A DNA stretch of 38,390 nt from the IMG/VR virus record IMGVR_UViG_3300049027_000038, positions 1-38,390 of that record; one strand, given 5' to 3'. Positions 7,451 to 29,273 of the stretch are shown piece by piece (position 1 is the stretch's first letter; every line of letters begins with the position of its first letter). The notes beneath the pieces were generated by a model. It saw nothing but the letters and a program-made list of their open reading frames with translations, ran no database searches and was not told the DNA's origin. Position numbers and translations under genes: made by a program. The stretch comes from a virus.

Positions 7451-7749
7451 CTGCGGACGAAGCCGCCCCGATTTTGCACTGTAATGCGGATACTGTCCGG
7501 CGGTTGGCGGCGGCTGGTAGCCTACCGGCCCGGAAGGTTGGACGGCGGTGGTTGTTCGAGCCTGAGCAGCTTAAGGCTTACGTGAGGGGAGAATGGCACT
7601 CTACAAACGGTCACCCGGCGGCCCCTGGTGGACTCGATTCACAGTACGCGGCAAGCCTGTTCGCCGATCCACCGGCACCACGGAGCGGGAGCGAGCGGAA
7701 GAATTCGAGACCGCGCTTCGGGCTCGTTTCTGGCGGCAAAGCCACTTAG
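7441..7749 (+). CDS. xis: Excisionase-like winged-helix (HTH_17) protein
   Basis: 102 residues from GTG 7441. Residues 1-52 match the MerR/excisionase-type winged helix (FLTADEAAPILHCNADTVRRL.AAGSLPARKVGRRWLFEPEQLKAYV), with recognition helix and wing both visible. Position immediately before int is typical for Xis, which bends DNA at the att arms and steers recombination to excision. The frame continues 157 bases into int in another frame, adding about 50 low-complexity residues (Gly, Pro, Ser). That tail is probably dispensable or simply tolerated, since the fold is complete before it. Confidence 0.75.
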   Translation: MFLTADEAAPILHCNADTVRRLAAAGSLPARKVGRRWLFEPEQLKAYVRGEWHSTNGHPAAPGGLDSQYAASLFADPPAPRSGSERKNSRPRFGLVSGGKAT

Positions 7750-8699
7750 GGGAGCAGGTCCATACGTGGCGCGAAGCCACGATTAGGTGGCGCGCTGATT
7801 CGGTCTGGCGCAAGAGTACCCGCGAGGCGAACGAGCGGGCACTAAAGCATTTCCAGCGACTGAATCCGGTGGTGGTGGCCGCCATTGATGCCGGAGTTTG
7901 TAAGGCTGCCAGACAGCATCTGGAGCGGTTGGGGTTGGCCGCCACATCGGTGAATCGCTACATGGCGGTGATGCGCGGTGTGCTGCGTGCGTGCGTCGAA
8001 TGGGGCTGGCTAACCCACGCCCCGCCCGTGCCAATGGCCTACGTGCCGGATCGGGAACCGGTGTGGCTAACCGCGCAGCAGTGCGAGGCCCTGATTGCGC
8101 AACTCCCCCAGCACCTGAGAGCCCCGGCGCTGTTCTGCGCCCTGACCGGCCTGCGGATGAGCAATGCCCGGGACTTGGAATGGTCGCGGGTAGATCTGGA
8201 GCGGGCGCATCTATGGATTCCGTCCAGCCACTACAAGACCCGCCGCGCCCATGGCGTGGCGCTACCGGCCGAGGCAGTGCAGTTGCTGGCCGCCATTCCA
8301 CGGGTCTCCGGCCACGTATTCACCTACCGCAGAGAGCGCATCCGCGGCACGTTCAACACCAAGGCGTTCCGGGCCGCCAGGAAGCGCGCAGGGCTGACCT
8401 GCCGCTGGCACGACCTGCGGCACACCTTTGCCTCGTGGCTGGCTGCAGCTGGGGCCTCGGACCGGGTATTGCAGGACATGGGCGGCTGGGCATCGGCCCG
8501 CATGCCGGGCCGCTACGCGCACCTGCGCAGCGCCGATCTGCGTCCGTGGGCGGATGCCGTCGGCACAAACGCTGTCACAGCCCTTACCGAAGCACTCCGG
8601 CCGGATGCGCCTAAGCGCTTGAAAAAACTGGTGCCGGAGATAGGAATCGAACCTACGACCCCATCATTACGAAATATCGGGGCTCGGAAAAAAGCCTAG
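7593..8699 (+). CDS. int: Tyrosine-recombinase integrase
   Basis: 368 residues from ATG 7593, preceded by GAGGGGAGA. Order: N-terminal beta arm-binding region (MALYKRSPGGPWWTRFTVRG), SAM-like core-binding domain (about 55-145), catalytic domain. Visible catalytic residues are R188 in CALTGLRMS, K215 in HYKTRRAHGVAL, H273 and R276 in WHDLRHTFASWLA, W299 in GGWAS, and nucleophile Y308 in GRYAHL. The last 30 codons run antisense to a copied tRNA 3' end, giving the GIEPTTPSL ending common in integrases that target tRNA genes. This ties int to the attP core at its own 3' end. Orientation and overlap with xis are as in other temperate phages. Confidence 0.95.
   Translation: MALYKRSPGGPWWTRFTVRGKPVRRSTGTTERERAEEFETALRARFWRQSHLGEQVHTWREATIRWRADSVWRKSTREANERALKHFQRLNPVVVAAIDAGVCKAARQHLERLGLAATSVNRYMAVMRGVLRACVEWGWLTHAPPVPMAYVPDREPVWLTAQQCEALIAQLPQHLRAPALFCALTGLRMSNARDLEWSRVDLERAHLWIPSSHYKTRRAHGVALPAEAVQLLAAIPRVSGHVFTYRRERIRGTFNTKAFRAARKRAGLTCRWHDLRHTFASWLAAAGASDRVLQDMGGWASARMPGRYAHLRSADLRPWADAVGTNAVTALTEALRPDAPKRLKKLVPEIGIEPTTPSLRNIGARKKA
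8629..8674 (-). other. attP: attP core: copy of tRNA 3' half, probably tRNA-Thr(CGU)
   Basis: Read on the minus strand this gives an anticodon loop ending (TTCGTAA), the 3' anticodon stem TGATG, a variable loop, a T arm (GTAGG-TTCGATT-CCTAT), acceptor strand CTCCGGC, discriminator A and CCA. No matching 5' half is present, so it is not a functional tRNA. It lies within the end of int, which is the classical attP position. The loop implies anticodon CGU (Thr), though the identity rests on the loop alone. Integration here would rebuild the host tRNA with phage-supplied 3' sequence. Confidence 0.85.
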
Positions 8700-22962: not shown

Positions 22963-23340
22963 CTATCGATCGGTCCAGAATTCCACGGTCAACGAGGCCC
23001 GGTACAGCCCAGTCGGCTGATCCTTTTCCTCGCCGTTATAGGCCACTACGTAGCCGAAGGGCTCGAAGGCATCGCGCAGCGCCATCAGCACTGCGCGGGC
23101 CGCGGTGACGGTTGGCGCGTAGGCGTCCACCTGAATGCCGGCCTGATCAGTGTCAGGCAGGTCGCCGAGGTAGTTCTCAGGTTGGCCGTAGACCAGTTGC
23201 CATACGGCATAGGGCAGCGCATACAGCGGCTGCCCGGGCTGAGGAGCCGAGGCGAACGGCCAGAACCTGACTGGACTTGTCCCGATCAGCGCCTTTACGG
23301 CGATGGACGCGGACGCATAGGTAAAGATCGGCGGAATCAT
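22963..23340 (-). CDS. DUF3168 tail completion protein
   Basis: 125 residues. Fits the DUF3168 family of tail terminator/completion proteins (gpU-like): MIPPIFTYASASIAVKALIG, PLYALPYAVWQLVYGQPENYLGDLPDTDQAGIQVDAYAPT, then ARAVLMALRDAFEPFGYV. It overlaps the gp10-like gene by four bases and is followed by the leader of the tube gene. Confidence 0.85.
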   Translation of the reverse strand: MIPPIFTYASASIAVKALIGTSPVRFWPFASAPQPGQPLYALPYAVWQLVYGQPENYLGDLPDTDQAGIQVDAYAPTVTAARAVLMALRDAFEPFGYVVAYNGEEKDQPTGLYRASLTVEFWTDR

Positions 23341-23807
23341 TTGATGCCCAGCTTGGTCAGCTCTTTGCCGGCTTCCGCATCCATCGCCGCGACCACCTGC
23401 GCCAGCGCTTGCTCGCCCTGTTGTGCCGCTGGCCGCAGGAACGGCTGCGCCTTGGTGCCGGAGGTGCCCATCTCGACGTGCCTCCAGTGCGTCGTATTGC
23501 CGCCCGGCAGGTTGCCGGCATCAGCCTTCATCCTCGCCCCGCCCATGACGCCAACCCGCATCGTCGGGCCGCCATAGGACTTCTCGCGCCTGCGGCTGGC
23601 CGCCTGTACGGCGATGTTCTTGGCGATGTTCTCCCTGGTCTGCGGGTCGTCAATCGACTGCGCATTCCTACGGGCCGCACCGCGGATCACGTTGGCGCCT
23701 TTTCGCAAAGCCCGGCGCATGGCGCGGTTCCCGATGGCATCAGGAAGCTTGCGCATCTTGGCGAGGATGGGATCCAGGCCCGTAAGCTTCACCTCGAAGT
23801 CAGCCAT
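23337..23807 (-). CDS. HK97 gp10-like tail component
   Basis: 156 residues from ATG 23807 (MADFEVKLTGLDPILAKMRKLPDAI). The frame open to 23966 lies inside the glycosyltransferase gene and is rejected. Family pattern of HK97 gp10: LRKGANVIRGAARRNA and HWRHVEMGTSGTKAQPFLRPA. It probably acts at the head-tail joining ring. The gene starts eight bases inside the preceding glycosyltransferase gene, showing that the inserted cassette is translationally continuous with the structural genes. Confidence 0.85.
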   Translation of the reverse strand: MADFEVKLTGLDPILAKMRKLPDAIGNRAMRRALRKGANVIRGAARRNAQSIDDPQTRENIAKNIAVQAASRRREKSYGGPTMRVGVMGGARMKADAGNLPGGNTTHWRHVEMGTSGTKAQPFLRPAAQQGEQALAQVVAAMDAEAGKELTKLGIK

Positions 23808-24483
23808 GGGGCGCCGCCGCCGGCTGCATCCCGCACATCTCCCGGAACTCCCGGAACCAATCCAGTGACCGGCGGGCGTTCTGGTAATGGGCAAAGGCCG
23901 GGATTCCTGCAGTCCAGTGCAGGAGGCCAGCTGCGGAATCATCCTGCCCCTCATCCACCAGAACATTCCAGTTCGCGGGAAGCTCGCCTATATCCTCGTT
24001 CGGCAGAAACCGGAATTGCAGCACTTCCAGCTTCTCGGCCGTGCTGAGGTAGTCAGCATCGATGCCACGCCATGCCGGATGCGCGCAATTGAACAGCATC
24101 AGAGATGCCCAGTTCTTGCGCTCGTAATTGGTCTGCTCGCACTCCATCGCTGTGCCGATGTATTTGCGCTCGTGCTCGCTGCGGTAGACCGGATGCTTCA
24201 CCACCTGAACCGCGTAGGCGTCGTCATGCAGGGCGTTAAGTCGCGCCACGTCTCCCAACATCAGCATGTCGGAAGCGTCCGCGAAGATCGCCCATCCCTT
24301 GTAGTCGCACAGGCTCGGAACCAGGAACCGCGACAGCGTGAAGGCGTTGGAGCCTACAGGCAGTCCGCACGATGTCAGCGGAACGATGCTGGCCGGCTGA
24401 GAGGCGCGCTTGATGACCGAATGCGCGAATACGTGGAAGCCGTGCGACTCCCGAGCGTCGTAGCCACAGAACAGCCGGATCAC
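23800..24483 (-). CDS. GT-A/GT8-like glycosyltransferase
   Basis: 227 residues. Begins with MIRLFCGYDARESHGFHVFAHSVI and contains FADASDMLML, in which D69-A-S-D72 stands where the metal-binding DXD of GT-A enzymes would be. A further segment has KYIGTAMECEQTNYERKNWASLMLFNCAHPAW, a pattern of GT8-like and related phage transferases. Such enzymes move a sugar from a nucleotide donor to a protein, DNA or glycan. The acceptor here is unknown. It is the last gene of the inserted cassette and overlaps the gp10-like gene. Confidence 0.75.
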   Translation of the reverse strand: MIRLFCGYDARESHGFHVFAHSVIKRASQPASIVPLTSCGLPVGSNAFTLSRFLVPSLCDYKGWAIFADASDMLMLGDVARLNALHDDAYAVQVVKHPVYRSEHERKYIGTAMECEQTNYERKNWASLMLFNCAHPAWRGIDADYLSTAEKLEVLQFRFLPNEDIGELPANWNVLVDEGQDDSAAGLLHWTAGIPAFAHYQNARRSLDWFREFREMCGMQPAAAPHG

Positions 24484-25043
24484 GCCTTCACTGCCTCAAG
24501 CCGCATGTCGCGGTGATCCCGTCCCGCCGGATGGAACTGCGTCGGAAGGTGCTTGACCTTGGCAAATCCATTGGCCAGCAGGATCGACTCCAGTTCTTCC
24601 GGCGAATACCCCCATGGGTGGCACATGTACTTGTCGCCCGTCCGGGGATCGCCATAAATTCCCCACCGGGCTAGCTGGTCTGGATCCTTGCCGCCGCGCT
24701 TCCGGCCGCTGAGATAGTTCTCGCAACACTTCACGAGGTTGGGCAGTTCCAGAATCAGCCGTCCGACTGGCTTCAAGAGCCGCCGCCATTCAGCGAGTAC
24801 CGCTTCGATCTCCCAGCGATAGAAGTGCTCGAACAGGTGAATAGCCGTCAGATCCTTGGCGCACTCATCCGGCAATGGAATCGCCTTCGCATCGCACAGG
24901 ATTTCCGGGTCCCGGGGGGCGCTCGGATTTCGGGCAACATCACAATTGACGTAGCCATCCCACACTCGGGCACCGCAACCTACATTGAGGCGCACACCGT
25001 CAGTAGGAATTTCCACGCCTCGCTTGCCTCGCTCGGTTGCCAT
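24480..25043 (-). CDS. Class I SAM-dependent methyltransferase
   Basis: 187 residues. Motif I is LNVGCG (19-24), followed by an acidic residue at D35 (YVNCD) and AIHLFEHF (about 68-74), RLLKPVGRLILELPNLVKC and YSPEELESILLANGFAKV. This matches small Rossmann-fold methyltransferases acting on sugars or small molecules. The start at 25043 overlaps the upstream glycosyltransferase-like gene by 64 bases; an alternative GTG at 25016 would shorten this. It probably modifies a glycan made by its neighbours. Confidence 0.8.
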   Translation of the reverse strand: MATERGKRGVEIPTDGVRLNVGCGARVWDGYVNCDVARNPSAPRDPEILCDAKAIPLPDECAKDLTAIHLFEHFYRWEIEAVLAEWRRLLKPVGRLILELPNLVKCCENYLSGRKRGGKDPDQLARWGIYGDPRTGDKYMCHPWGYSPEELESILLANGFAKVKHLPTQFHPAGRDHRDMRLEAVKA

Positions 25044-25726
25044 TGCCAGTACGCCAGTCGTTGCAGAAATCCGCGGCGCTCATCCGGTGAAGGATCAGCG
25101 GGCGCCATCAAGTCGTTGCCGTAAAGCGTTGCCGCCGCCCCGCCCTCGCAGACCACCGGAATTCCAGCGATGCAGGCATCTACCGCGACATTGGAATGTC
25201 GGCAGACGACTAGAGAGGCGCCGCGCAATGTGTCCTCAATCGGGCCGTCTACCGTTCGGCAGTCCAGTGATTCACCGGGCTTCTTCGGCCGGAACACCGG
25301 CTCGCGCTCGGGGTAGGCTGCGCGCACGCGGCGCAATGCCTTCTGCTCCCACGACAAGCCAGCAAAGCCCAGTTGGCGCCGGGACTTTCTGCCCATGCCG
25401 ACGATCACTACCGGGCCGGCAGGATCCGCATCATTGCGAAGCTCGCCGTTCCATCGGTCGCCGGGAACATCCATCAATCTCACCGGATGATCGGCGTTGA
25501 CCGTGAACCGACAGTGCGTGTCGCGATTCCAGTAGGCCAGATCCCATGCGATCCATGTACCGCCCGCCCTGAGGTGCGCATCCAGTCTCGGCCGCCTGCC
25601 CATGTGGCCAGCGCCCCAGGTCATCAACAGTCCGGAGATTCCGGAAGGTTCGGCCTCGCGCATAGCCAAGAGCATCCGCGTTCCACGCTGGGAAACATCC
25701 GGACCCAGCAGGTACTCACAGGCCAT
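24980..25726 (-). CDS. Glycosyltransferase-like protein A
   Basis: 248 residues from ATG 25726, which overlaps the upstream stop; an upstream start at 25780 is possible. Segments GGTWIAWDLAYWNRDTHCRF, ASLVVCRHSNVAVDACIAGIPVV and GFLQRLAYWQWQPSEASEAW suggest a GT-B-like or capsule-transferase-like fold. In such folds the C-terminal Rossmann half binds the nucleotide sugar (helix after SNVAVDACIAGIP). The end of the protein resembles that of the gene at 26537-27229, so the two are likely paralogues. No catalytic residue can be named with confidence. Confidence 0.6.
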   Translation of the reverse strand: MACEYLLGPDVSQRGTRMLLAMREAEPSGISGLLMTWGAGHMGRRPRLDAHLRAGGTWIAWDLAYWNRDTHCRFTVNADHPVRLMDVPGDRWNGELRNDADPAGPVVIVGMGRKSRRQLGFAGLSWEQKALRRVRAAYPEREPVFRPKKPGESLDCRTVDGPIEDTLRGASLVVCRHSNVAVDACIAGIPVVCEGGAAATLYGNDLMAPADPSPDERRGFLQRLAYWQWQPSEASEAWKFLLTVCASM

Positions 25727-26552
25727 CGATGAACTGCTGCAAATCCTTAGCGGCCTGGTCGACCGAATACGCGCTGGCAAGGAACCGATCCGATACCACT
25801 TCGCGTGCCGATTGGTCCGTCAGCCGGTCGAAAGCCTCGGCCAGCTCCGACAGGTCATCCGCCCACAGCTCCACGCCGCAGCGAGTCTCCCGATATCCAC
25901 ACTCGCGGTTCCCGATGAACGGGGTTCCGCTGCCGTGGGCATTGGCGAGCTTCACGTTGGACTTCCAATGCCGCGAGACGTAGCCGCCGCTGTCGCGCAT
26001 GCCGAGCACAATGTCCGCCTCTGCCAGGTGATCCGGGTTTACCACGAATCGCCAACCCCGGCGCTCGCACAGCGACTCAATGCCGGCGCGCAGACTGCCG
26101 AGATATTGGGCCGCACCCTCATAGGCCACCGCCTGCGCGTGCTTGCGCACCGGATTGACCTTGATTCCCGGTCGGTGGTGGTGCGGCAGGACCATCCCAG
26201 GCAGGCCGCGATCACAGTCCGCGCGCATCTGTGCCGTGGGCCAGATGATCGCCGTTGGGTTCAGGCGGGCGATCTCCGCCCTCACCCATGCAACCGCCTG
26301 CTCCCTGCTCCATTCGTAGGCCGACGGCTGCGGGTAGGCGTCCACCACATCCCATACCCAGAGACGGCCTTTCAGGCTTCGCAGCAGCACGTCAGGGACG
26401 CGCTTCACCACGACGGCCATGTCGGCGCGGCTCATATCCACGGCCGACGCCATGGGGATTGCCGTGGCTCCCATGGCAGACGCGAGTTGCGCCCCGCGAA
26501 CCTGCCAGCTGCCAGAGGTCCCCTTTCCGGTAAAGATCACCCGAGCAGCCAA
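25716..26552 (-). CDS. GT-B-type glycosyltransferase-like protein
   Basis: 278 residues. Start MAARVIFTGKGTSGSWQVRGAQLASAMGATAIP resembles the GT-B N-terminal Rossmann half. The C-terminal half has WRFVVNPDHLAEADIVLGMRDSGGYVSRHWKSNVKLANAHGSGTPFIGNRECGY, with a KLANAHGSGTPFI segment like the donor-binding helix of GT-B enzymes. It overlaps both neighbours. The acceptor and donor sugars are unknown. Confidence 0.65.
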   Translation of the reverse strand: MAARVIFTGKGTSGSWQVRGAQLASAMGATAIPMASAVDMSRADMAVVVKRVPDVLLRSLKGRLWVWDVVDAYPQPSAYEWSREQAVAWVRAEIARLNPTAIIWPTAQMRADCDRGLPGMVLPHHHRPGIKVNPVRKHAQAVAYEGAAQYLGSLRAGIESLCERRGWRFVVNPDHLAEADIVLGMRDSGGYVSRHWKSNVKLANAHGSGTPFIGNRECGYRETRCGVELWADDLSELAEAFDRLTDQSAREVVSDRFLASAYSVDQAAKDLQQFIDGL

Positions 26553-27229
26553 TGGAACGCCTCGCCAGATTCGATTTCAGCCATGCGCCATTGCGCCCAG
26601 GCCAGCCGCTGGAACATTCCCAGCCGGCCGGCGTCCGTGTTGTCCTGTTCACCAATCCATCCCGGCATGTGCGACTCAACCGGAATGCCCATCATCAGCG
26701 CCTTGACCGCAGCGCCACTGCCCCAGGTCACAACCTTTCCAGCCTCTGCCAGGTCCTGCTCAAGCGGAACGCATGGCCCGGTTCCGGGATGAGACCTGAT
26801 GCGGTCACATTTCGGCCGCCAGCTGCGAGGCTGGGCAGTAGGTGGCGATCCAATGCCCCGCTGGACTAGCCCCACCGTCTCGCCTTCCGTCCGCCATGGA
26901 GCCAGCTCCACGCCCAACGCGTTGTAGCGGTCAGGCGCGCCGACAGGAAACATCCCGGCGGTGTTATGGCGGTTCCTGGCCAGATGCAGCCAGCGGCCTC
27001 CCATGAAGCCGTTGCCCCATGTGGCGTTCTCGGCAACGATCACCGGTCGGCCGTCGCGCTCGTATTCCCGGGCCACCGAATCAGCCGTGCCAATCCTGTT
27101 CCACGTCACCAGCAGATCAGCCTGCCCCATTCCCTCCGCCACCTCGTACCCGACTTCCCGCAGGCCGTGCGTGAAGGCGGCCCAGCGCTCAGGCGGCGCG
27201 AGTCGTCGCAGGTTCAGGTAGCACTTCAT
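26537..27229 (-). CDS. Glycosyltransferase-like protein B (paralogue of A)
   Basis: 230 residues. MKCYLNLRRLAPPERWAAFTHGLREVGYEVAEG, then DLLVTWNRIGTADSVAREYERDGRPVIVAENATWGNGF, and later VVTWGSGAAVKALMMGIPVESHMPGW and FQRLAWAQWRMAEIESGEAF. The C-terminal blocks line up with those of the gene at 24980-25726. The fold looks like a capsular-polysaccharide or GT-B-like transferase. It overlaps the next gene upstream by 41 bases. Confidence 0.6.
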   Translation of the reverse strand: MKCYLNLRRLAPPERWAAFTHGLREVGYEVAEGMGQADLLVTWNRIGTADSVAREYERDGRPVIVAENATWGNGFMGGRWLHLARNRHNTAGMFPVGAPDRYNALGVELAPWRTEGETVGLVQRGIGSPPTAQPRSWRPKCDRIRSHPGTGPCVPLEQDLAEAGKVVTWGSGAAVKALMMGIPVESHMPGWIGEQDNTDAGRLGMFQRLAWAQWRMAEIESGEAFHWLLG

Positions 27230-27722
27230 CCGGGGCCATCATGGGAAAGCAGGTCAGAGCAGAGCCGGGAGTGCAATTCACTACCTCGATCTTGCGGTTC
27301 AAGCTGCGCCACGCCTGATACTCGTTCAGGTGGTTTCGGCGCTGGTGCGGCTTGGTGTTGCGTAAGCCATTCACGTAAGGGCCGAAAAAGTGCGTTCCCT
27401 GCATATCGAAGCCGAACAGCAGGATCCTCGTCGCGCCCTGCAGCTTGGCCGCCTCCAACGCGAGAACTCCTGAATTCGTCGTCTGCGCGATCTGCGGAAG
27501 CTGCAGTTGCACCACGTCCTCAACGCGATGCATTGCGTACCGGCGCGGAATGCGCATCGCCTCGGGATACTTGGCCCACCAGCCTTTGTCGCTGGCCGCA
27601 ATCACTTCTGCCCAAGGGGCGAGCTGGAACGCGCAGCCCACAACTCCCAATTTCATTCCACGAAGCCGCTCTGCGAGCTCGACCGATGCAGACGGCCCGG
27701 GGGCCAGTAGCGCCCAGATCAT
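27189..27722 (-). CDS. MptE/DUF115-like or sialyltransferase-like Rossmann protein
   Basis: 177 residues. Begins MIWALLAPGPSASVELAERL with a P-G-P-S loop, followed by KLGVVGCAFQLAPWAEVIAASDKGWWAKYP and NSGVLALEAAKLQGATRILLFGFDMQG. These features occur in DUF115/MptE-like proteins and in the CstII-type sialyltransferase fold, where a GxGPS loop and a GFD segment bind the nucleotide donor. It is the first cassette gene in transcription order, coupled to the head-closure gene by four bases. Donor specificity cannot be seen. Confidence 0.55.
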   Translation of the reverse strand: MIWALLAPGPSASVELAERLRGMKLGVVGCAFQLAPWAEVIAASDKGWWAKYPEAMRIPRRYAMHRVEDVVQLQLPQIAQTTNSGVLALEAAKLQGATRILLFGFDMQGTHFFGPYVNGLRNTKPHQRRNHLNEYQAWRSLNRKIEVVNCTPGSALTCFPMMAPDEVLPEPATTRAA

Positions 27723-28060
27723 CCGACGACGCGCACGCCTTCCGACACGGGCAGCGTCATGTATTCAATGCCACTGTCCTTGTCGGTCAGCACTCCGAGG
27801 ATCCTATATGCCAACCCACGATGCAGGAATCGCATGGTGGCGTTGATGTTCTCCCGATGGCGGATCACGAACTGTCCGCGAACCTCGGATTGCTGGGCAG
27901 CAGCGGCAATGAACGCGCTCACGCTTGCCGGCTCAACCGCCGCCCAAGGTTCGGCAATCGTCACCCATGCGATGACCATCTCTCCGGTAGTCGAATCTTG
28001 TGTAGTCTGCTGCTCCTGCAGCTCGGGCTTGTGCCGCAGCCGGCCGGCCTCGATAGCCAT
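27719..28060 (-). CDS. Head closure protein (head-tail adaptor)
   Basis: 113 residues, MAIEAGRLRHKPELQEQQTTQDSTTGEMVIAWVTIAEPWAAVEP..., the pattern of SPP1 gp16/HK97-type head closure proteins (RLRHRVTIQ..., then VRGQFVIRHRENINATMRFLHRGLAYRIL). It sits behind the gp6-like connector, as expected. The glycosyl cassette follows it. Confidence 0.82.
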   Translation of the reverse strand: MAIEAGRLRHKPELQEQQTTQDSTTGEMVIAWVTIAEPWAAVEPASVSAFIAAAAQQSEVRGQFVIRHRENINATMRFLHRGLAYRILGVLTDKDSGIEYMTLPVSEGVRVVG

Positions 28061-28452
28061 TACCGCACCGTAGACTTGCGCAGCCCGGAGAGAATCGCCG
28101 TGGCTCCGCGCGACAGAGTGTAGCCGTGGCCTTGGTGCGACTCGACCGCGTTGTCTCCGCCGCCCTCTCGGAAGCGGAACTGCGACGCCAGCTCAATGAG
28201 GGTCGCAGCCTTCACGGTCGGATGCAGCGCGTCTGATGGCACCGGGTCGTCATTCGAGTCTCGCAAGATCTCGCCGTCTGAATCCACTTCCGGCACGTAC
28301 AAGCGCCAGTTGTCCTTCAGCCAGGACGCCACAGCGCCAGAGATCGCGGGGATGAAGATGTCCAGCCACGGATCGTGGGGACTGCCGCCGGAATCAGACT
28401 CGTCAATGCGCAGGTGCGGATAGCACTCTGCCTTGGTGACGAGGTCGATCAC
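28060..28452 (-). CDS. gp6-like head-tail connector
   Basis: 130 residues. MIDLVTKAECYPHLRIDESDSGG, then DPWLDIFIPAISGAVASWLKDN, and the family-type LHPTVKAATLIELASQFRFREG. This is the helical core of HK97 gp6-like connectors that bind under the portal. Starts within the overlap of the collagen-like gene (four bases) and abuts the closure protein. Confidence 0.82.
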   Translation of the reverse strand: MIDLVTKAECYPHLRIDESDSGGSPHDPWLDIFIPAISGAVASWLKDNWRLYVPEVDSDGEILRDSNDDPVPSDALHPTVKAATLIELASQFRFREGGGDNAVESHQGHGYTLSRGATAILSGLRKSTVR

Positions 28453-29273
28453 GCCGGACCCCGGTCGATGGTCTTAACCGGCGCCGTCTTGTCGATGCCG
28501 TTACGGCCGTCCTTGCCATCCCGCCCCTTGCGAGCCGCAAGGATCCAGTCCTCCGCCCTTTCGAGGCAGGGCTTGGCCGAGGTATCGCGCTTGGCGATCC
28601 ACAAGGCGCCGTCGTGGGTCATGGACTCGCCGGCCTTCGCCAGTTTGCCCTCAGCCCAGAACCCGGAATGTCGCATGTACGGCAACACGAACTCGGTAGC
28701 CTTCTGCGAGCCGGTCAGGCGGATGACAAAGCCGCGCTCGGCGTCGAACTCGCCCTGAGCAGTCTCGAAGCTCAGGCCGTCAACGCCATCTTTACCGTCC
28801 CTGCCGATCCCATCTTTGCCGTCTTTTCCGACGACGATGCCCAGCGACTTGGTGCGGCCGTCTGTCAGGGTAACGACCAGCGCGCCCTCGCGGTCGATCA
28901 GGAGGTCAGCAACCCCTGCGCCGTCCTTGCCGGGTTCGCCTTTGATGCTGACGCCTGGATCTCCCGGCGGACCTGGATCGCCATCCTTCCCGTCCTGTCC
29001 ATGACGGATGGGGTTCGCCTCGAAATAGGCCTTGGTCTGCACGCCTACGTAGGACTGCACCAGAGACTTGAGCTGATCGGTGGCCAATAGTTCGGCAACT
29101 ACCTCCAACACGTCCACCTGGTCTGCATCCGCGCCCTTCTCGCCGGGATCCCCCGGAGGGCCGCGCACAGGCTCCCGAGTCTCCAGTGCTTCAAGGCGCT
29201 TGAGCAGCGGAGCGATTGCGCCGTGCATGACCTCGGCCAGCTGCTCGCCGATCTTCTCGATATCAAGCGACAT
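28449..29273 (-). CDS. Collagen-like phage structural protein
   Basis: 274 residues. The N-terminus is a coiled coil (IGEQLAEVMHGAIAPLLKRLEAL). Gly-X-Y blocks follow: GPPGDPGEKGADA, then DGKDGDPGPPGDPG and KGEPGKDGAG, then GKDGKDGIGRDGKDG and a last one near the end (KGRDGKDGRNG). Between them lie small globular segments, including TRKSLG-type and the ALWIAKRDTSAKPCLERAEDWILAARKG unit, similar to Trp-rich carbohydrate-binding modules. Located between portal and connector genes, so it is probably displayed on the head or neck. Triple-helix trimers are expected from the repeats. Confidence 0.8.
   Translation of the reverse strand: MSLDIEKIGEQLAEVMHGAIAPLLKRLEALETREPVRGPPGDPGEKGADADQVDVLEVVAELLATDQLKSLVQSYVGVQTKAYFEANPIRHGQDGKDGDPGPPGDPGVSIKGEPGKDGAGVADLLIDREGALVVTLTDGRTKSLGIVVGKDGKDGIGRDGKDGVDGLSFETAQGEFDAERGFVIRLTGSQKATEFVLPYMRHSGFWAEGKLAKAGESMTHDGALWIAKRDTSAKPCLERAEDWILAARKGRDGKDGRNGIDKTAPVKTIDRGPA

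Follow-up and report, generated by a model that had tools for sequence, protein, structure and literature searches.

A variable glycosyltransferase and methyltransferase cassette between neck genes of siphophage-like viruses, with a putative role in virion glycosylation

The IMG/VR record IMGVR_UViG_3300049027_000038 (38,390 bases; this whole stretch is referred to below as the window) belongs to a temperate siphophage-like virus, and its minus strand carries a cassette of six open reading frames (ORFs), here designated A to F, which splits the head-closure gene Hc1 from an HK97-gp10-like gene. The window is one state of a frequently exchanged module: at the same joint, related phages hold other sets of genes, nearly all glycosyltransferases (GTs) and a methyltransferase, or no cassette at all. 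We propose that the products of this mobile, late-expressed cassette, soluble GTs and one methyltransferase, assemble a short O-methylated sugar chain on one of the virion proteins of the phage, a proposal whose chances we consider evenly balanced. What the analysis establishes is the set of genes with their enzyme classes, their overlaps within the neck operon, the lack of any membrane partner and the exchange of gene sets behind an invariably leading A.

The cassette and its enzymes

The cassette runs from 27722 to 23800 on the minus strand. Its upstream edge is Hc1 (27719-28060, minus strand; PF05521, E-value 1.4e-23; phrog_25) and its downstream edge is the gp10-like neck/tail-completion gene (23337-23807, minus strand; PF04883, E-value 5.9e-8; phrog_5), so that all six ORFs lie where a sequence-only reading of the window had placed them. 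That reading also stated that all the genes overlap, which holds for every neighbouring pair, by 4-64 nucleotides (nt), inside the neck operon. After re-reading of starts and stops the overlaps are 4 nt for Hc1/A, 41 for A/B, 16 for B/C, 64 for D/E, 4 for E/F and 8 for F/gp10; that of C/D is 11 nt, given a D start at the ATG at 25726. The Hc1/A junction leaves no space for a private promoter. On the minus strand the order is TerL, protease, major capsid protein, portal, collagen-like protein, adaptor Ad1, Hc1, cassette and gp10-like gene, followed by tail terminator, tail tube, tape measure, tail tip and fibre.

Each of the genes A-F has homologs in the same order in other phages, and they are therefore not chance ORFs. 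The G+C content of the cassette (0.61-0.66 per kb) is no different from that of its flanks, and a DNA-level search of the cassette against phage records gave no match. No hydrophobic segment of transmembrane grade is present in A-F (the highest 19-residue mean is 1.58), and the cassette holds no membrane protein and, in agreement with the initial description, no flippase or polymerase.

Gene A (27189..27722, minus strand) encodes a GT42/sialyltransferase-like transferase (phrog_4603 'alpha-2,3-sialyltransferase', E-value 3.9e-29), homologous to P1 PmgO, D3 orf7 and PAJU2 gp10. When a 22-member A profile was searched against PDB sequences, it matched residues 1-162 of CstII (E-value 7e-5), all of the 8 best matches were sialyltransferases, and similarity to CstI/CstII extended over the part binding the cytidine monophosphate (CMP)-sugar. 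The alignment places non-Tyr residues at both positions 156 and 162, which we take to be the catalytic tyrosines of CstII; because these are not kept, we name A GT42-like and not a GT42 member. Residue H111 of A is invariant in 22/22 members and lies outside the reliable alignment to His188, presumably the general base of CstII. A had been described from its letters as MptE/sialyltransferase-like: the sialyltransferase half stands with the CstII profile, whereas the MptE half falls. As for a pterin kinase (MptE), a weak PF01973 match, below the cut-off, appears in P1 PmgO and PmgP only, and the profile favours sialyltransferases.

A profile search of PDB sequences with B (26537..27229, minus strand) returned nothing meaningful, and structure prediction was therefore used. 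In Foldseek and VIA-align comparisons of its AlphaFold2 model, with a predicted local distance difference test score (pLDDT) of 91.5, the best rows are all KpsC, WbbB or KrkA (Z 11.5-9.3), the next unrelated row scoring 6.8. This makes B similar to retaining beta-transferases of 3-deoxy-D-manno-oct-2-ulosonic acid (Kdo), with a GT99/GT107/GT140 fold. Common to such enzymes, whose mutual sequence similarity is negligible, are two motifs, the QXXXD nucleophile and HP (PMC12887879, PMC10148158). B-type members keep the latter as R-x-H147-P148. Thus B resembles KpsC (GT107), WbbB (GT99) and KrkA (GT140) in overall fold and in the HP motif, while its type IV relatives share the QXXXD motif as well; unlike these enzymes, B is much smaller and phage-encoded. 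No relative was found in the plasmid records searched for B.

Gene D (24980..25726, minus strand) encodes a paralog of B, assigned to the Kdo-transferase fold through homology to B only; the B and D profiles converge on the same 41 members. It probably starts at the ATG at 25726, as in relatives, and not at the TTG at 25780. The superfamily exists in three states: QVPGD with HP (the type IV relatives, in L045, L065 and L102-L106), QRGIG with HP (B type) and neither motif (D type). The two paralogous GT-like proteins noticed at the outset are thus B and D, with the GT-B protein C lying between them.

In its AlphaFold2 model (pLDDT 91.7), C (25716..26552, minus strand) has the two-domain GT-B fold of GT4 type, with a Foldseek E-value of 6e-9 (SdgB) and VIA Z of ~20 to the GT4 enzymes BshA, PimA and SenB over 250+ residues; its enzyme activity is predicted. 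A weak PF13524 match occurs in 2/8 of its members. Gene E (24480..25043, minus strand) encodes an S-adenosylmethionine-dependent methyltransferase of sugar O-methyltransferase type (PF08241, Methyltransf_11, E-value 2.8e-6); among NCBIfam models the protein comes nearest to an oligosaccharide methyltransferase, scoring below that model's cut-off. Gene F (23800..24483, minus strand) encodes a GT-A-type glycosyltransferase (phrog_28018, E-value 2e-27) resembling nucleotide-sugar transferases of Pelagibacter and Caulobacter phages. The F profile gives weak matches to WbbM (0.0059) and a GT8 (0.09), and the acidic pair D69 and D72 is invariant in 15 members. The expectation that all six proteins would be of transferase type was supported, by profile for A, confident structure models for B and C, Pfam for E, profile plus acidic pair for F and paralogy for D.

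In marine viral contigs, F-type and D-type domains are apparently fused in a single ORF of ~550 residues (L094 2182-3831, L095 1951-3600, L099 5279-6922, L100 7992-9635). The fusion is an independent sign that F and the B/D-type proteins work together.

Exchange of gene sets at the joint

Viral contigs were searched for relatives with B, portal, F and A as queries, and bacterial genomes with B. The joint is spanned in 42 loci, including several near-identical pairs, so that the counts are not independent; it is occupied in 36 and empty in 6 of them (L079, L034, L028, L039, L043, L067). Presence and absence at the exact joint, the comparison suggested by the sequence-only reading, are thus both found, and the cassette-less sisters L079, L034, L028, L039 and L043 bear out its statement that these connector genes ordinarily lie side by side. 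Hc1 and the gp10-like gene overlap by 4 nt in L079 and by 8 nt in L034, while L028, L039, L043 and L067 have space between the edges for a single gp10-sized gene only.

Occupied joints hold at least nine distinct gene sets, nearly all composed of GTs and a methyltransferase, and in 36/36 of them the recognisable cassette genes begin with A, a few having small or HNH-like ORFs before it. The full set A-B-C-D-E-F of the window recurs in L010, L014, L016-L019 and L023. Two further long sets end in F as well: A-B-D-GT-MT24-F (L009, L013, L042) and A-B-methyltransferase-C-D-F (L021). Shorter ones comprise A-GT-MT23 (PAJU2, L052-L062), A-MT11-GT2 (L027, L030, L032, L035-L037, L040, L063), A-MT24-B' (L045, L065), A-MT11-A' (L064), A-GT-TviD-like (L024) and A alone (L029). 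The third cassette gene of L024 (11844-12467) matches the N-terminal part of the Vi polysaccharide protein TviD with an E-value of 6e-12, below the cut-off.

The sets are scattered over a portal tree of 33 phages and require at least 13 changes, three of them for the six-gene set; supported branches force at least three changes for the empty state. Because of this scatter we regard the cassette as a mobile module.

ORFs resembling HNH endonucleases by eye lie inside the variable joint of PAJU2-type cassettes (L054 7803-8249, L056 16062-16943, L060 11772-12602, L061 12850-13557). They are a possible candidate agent of cassette exchange.

In L016-L020, sisters with the same six-gene cassette, TAG is apparently read as glutamine. 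In-frame TAG occurs in 35 gene copies (15 gene families, three loci), mostly facing Gln in relatives, and serves as the terminal stop in 0/41 genes of the recoded sister phages. The same records contain tRNAs with anticodon CTA, clustered at L108 1231-1575 and L109 927-2016.

Related cassettes and known systems

D3, Caulobacter jumbo phages, Tetraselmis virus S20, P1 and P7 all carry homologous sets, placed among virion or late genes. The Caulobacter phages CcrSC and CcrColossus have A, B, D, F and a methyltransferase in a row, as a block between a tail protein and the endolysin; unlike the window they carry a GT9-like gene, a different methyltransferase and no C. D3 (orf7, orf12, orf13) and PAJU2 (gp10-gp12) share A, a GT and a methyltransferase with the window. 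In PAJU2 the three genes occupy the identical Hc1/gp10 joint, whereas the D3 set is split, with A behind the capsid gene and the other two ahead of gp10. The GT (phrog_6804) and methyltransferase (phrog_6564) of both belong to families other than those of the window. In prophage-like loci of Gamma-, Beta- and Alphaproteobacteria the cassette sits among head and tail genes where these are recognisable. Prophage-like regions of three Kiloniellaceae metagenome-assembled genomes (L085, L086, L087) contain A-B-methyltransferase-F, and their tail genes (202-residue and tip proteins) are related to those of the window.

P1 was reached through A of PAJU2: PmgO matches the A profile with an E-value of 1.5e-59, and PmgP, a second A-like protein, with 5e-10. 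PmgQ is a GT related to gp30 of Citrobacter phage phiNP. The P1 genes pmgO, pmgP and pmgQ are annotated 'putative morphogenetic', and pmgO-pmgP-ppp-pmgQ corresponds to hdmB-hdmC-ppp-hdmD of P7. Like the cassette, this group lies in a late-regulated region; unlike it, the group has no homolog of B, C, D, E or F, includes the protein phosphatase gene ppp and adjoins tail/baseplate genes. Scattered phage genes labelled 'hypothetical', 'sialyltransferase' or 'putative morphogenetic' are thereby united in one modular GT/methyltransferase cassette family, and P1 pmgO/pmgP/pmgQ and D3 orf7 become tied to a concrete, testable hypothesis.

In mycobacteriophage Che8 and in cluster O (the Corndog group), GT and methyltransferase genes have been proven to modify capsid and tail-tube proteins, according to passages of PMC11600133 and PMC12619734 that cite Freeman et al. 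2023; this appears to be the only proven phage system of such make-up. Che8 gp108-110 (GT2 with Methyltransf_24, GT2, and GT25) resemble the cassette in combining several soluble phage GTs with an O-methyltransferase. However, they gave no significant profile or BLAST match to A, B, C, E or F, nor were any mycobacteriophage matches found for these five, so we treat the likeness as functional analogy. The systems also differ in location, at the genome end in Che8 as opposed to between neck genes, and in host, mycobacteria as opposed to Gram-negative bacteria.

Putative acceptor and alternative explanations

For the proposed virion glycan, we infer the acceptor, the order of transfers, the sugars and the methyl cap as follows. 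A would make the invariant first transfer onto the acceptor, since it alone is present in every set and in one locus (L029) makes up the whole cassette. B, C, D and F may then lengthen the chain with sugars from the host pool, a source we suggest because no sugar-nucleotide genes were found among the window genes checked. Judged by the GT42-like and Kdo-transferase-like folds, the donors may be CMP-activated ulosonic acids and hexoses; almost every Gram-negative host synthesizes Kdo. E would cap the chain with a methyl group, and the acceptor would be one of the virion proteins that are abundant while particles assemble. A cytoplasmic glycan on an intracellular acceptor fits soluble GTs and a methyltransferase that are translated together with neck proteins and whose sets are swapped behind a constant A. 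Selection on the particle surface, by grazing, antibodies or debris binding, could drive the change of outer sugars.

If true, a large group of phages would be able to exchange the surface chemistry of their particles, with a bearing on phage stability, immune recognition and gene exchange between phages. In its widest form, the idea would be that Gram-negative phages place a methyl-capped, exchangeable glycan, drawn from host pools of CMP-Kdo (or a related CMP-ulosonic acid) and hexoses, on their virions. It would constitute an unrecognised system spanning siphophages, jumbo phages and P1, with A/PmgO as constant primer, swapped as a unit between phages; we consider this generalization rather unlikely.

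Several observations weigh against virion glycosylation. Four capsid alleles are common to phages with and without a cassette (L032 with and L028 without, 88%; L063 with and L039 without, 88%), and neither the tail-tube nor the collagen-like proteins separate close relatives that differ in having the cassette. The link of the cassette to virion modules is strong, not universal: pelagiphage Mosig has its relatives of F and D next to RuvC and ribonucleotide reductase genes, away from the virion genes. In P1, pmgO, pmgP and pmgQ are dispensable for plaques. Genome-wide CRISPR interference found pmgO, pmgP, ppp and pmgQ nonessential (PMC10695390), a passage of the same paper credits that result to a deletion survey as well, and a passage on a knockout library, in a set said to include pmgO/P/Q, reports 24/29 mutants without change in plaquing or antirestriction (PMC9024508). 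No glycan is mentioned in the published P1 papers on cryo-electron microscopy and the virion proteome; this is a weak negative, since flexible glycans seldom show in such structures and those studies did not search for them. Finally, the nucleophile motif of B reads QRGIG, with G in place of the nucleophile Asp, and D has lost both QXXXD and HP (HP to K), so donor and mechanism may differ from those of the Kdo transferases.

The sequence-only interpretation stands in part: it is supported for the enzyme classes and the positional variability, and its virion target remains plausible. The cassette does not track capsid, tube or collagen alleles. The capsid allele was considered as determinant: the L063/L028 pair is suggestive (46% identity beside neighbours at 97-99%), and the full matrix refuted it. 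The collagen-like protein was likewise rejected as private acceptor, being present with empty joints too. The missing capsid correlation removes a tempting false link and leaves the virion acceptor putative.

The major capsid protein occurs as approximately four alleles at ~50% identity, while the flanking TerL, protease and portal are 70-99% identical. Its swapping is independent of the cassette (L027, L028, L032, L035-L037, L039, L043, L063).

The main rival, which we judge somewhat unlikely, is late capping of host surface glycans: in the cytoplasm, the enzymes would add terminal Kdo-like sugars along with methyl caps to the precursors of these glycans, which would keep progeny from binding to debris or shut out superinfecting phage. 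Phage GTs altering host glycans are well known, and the folds nearest to B come from enzymes that make capsule and O-antigen; one of them, WbbB, attaches a terminal Kdo residue to O-antigen. L024, in addition, carries its TviD-like gene. However, A-F differ from serotype or O-antigen conversion clusters (gtrABC, wzy type) in having no membrane flippase, polymerase or transferase. Moreover, the genes belong to the late virion transcript, with no space for a lysogeny promoter in the window, and members of these enzyme families are found again in phages infecting Caulobacter, Pseudomonas, E. coli and alphaproteobacteria, hosts with different surfaces.

Proximity to gp10-like genes in the window, PAJU2, D3 and L080, and to a minor-tail/neck-like gene in phiNP, hints at a narrower target, namely one specific neck protein (gp10-like or Hc1), whose modification would affect head-tail joining and not the virion surface. 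Yet cassette-less sister phages keep homologous Hc1 and gp10, and the Caulobacter and P1 cassettes lie far from neck genes; we consider this reading improbable. Less probable still is a passenger status, in which selfish or neutral genes occupy a recombination hotspot and do nothing for the particle. Frequent presence and absence, the dispensable P1 homologs and the HNH-like ORFs in L054, L056, L060 and L061 would agree with such a fate, whereas most catalytic-type motifs and the reading frames are conserved across deep divergence, the TAG-recoded relatives still keep all six genes readable, and GTs and methyltransferases co-occur non-randomly. Decoration of phage DNA with hypermodified bases against restriction is the least probable: there are phage GTs that act on DNA (a passage of PMC12619734 cites them) and L001 and Mosig have DNA-related neighbours, but the folds are those of polysaccharide GTs, the window proteins scanned (a part of its ORFs) include no base hydroxylase, hydroxymethylase or thymidylate-synthase-like gene, and antirestriction was unchanged in the P1 single-gene knockouts, in the set said to include pmgO/P/Q, in the passage of PMC9024508.

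Outside the cassette, the window encodes a tyrosine-type integrase (7593-8699, plus strand). The C-terminal domain of its collagen-like protein (28449-29273, between portal and Ad1) matches the end of the portal family phrog_1289.

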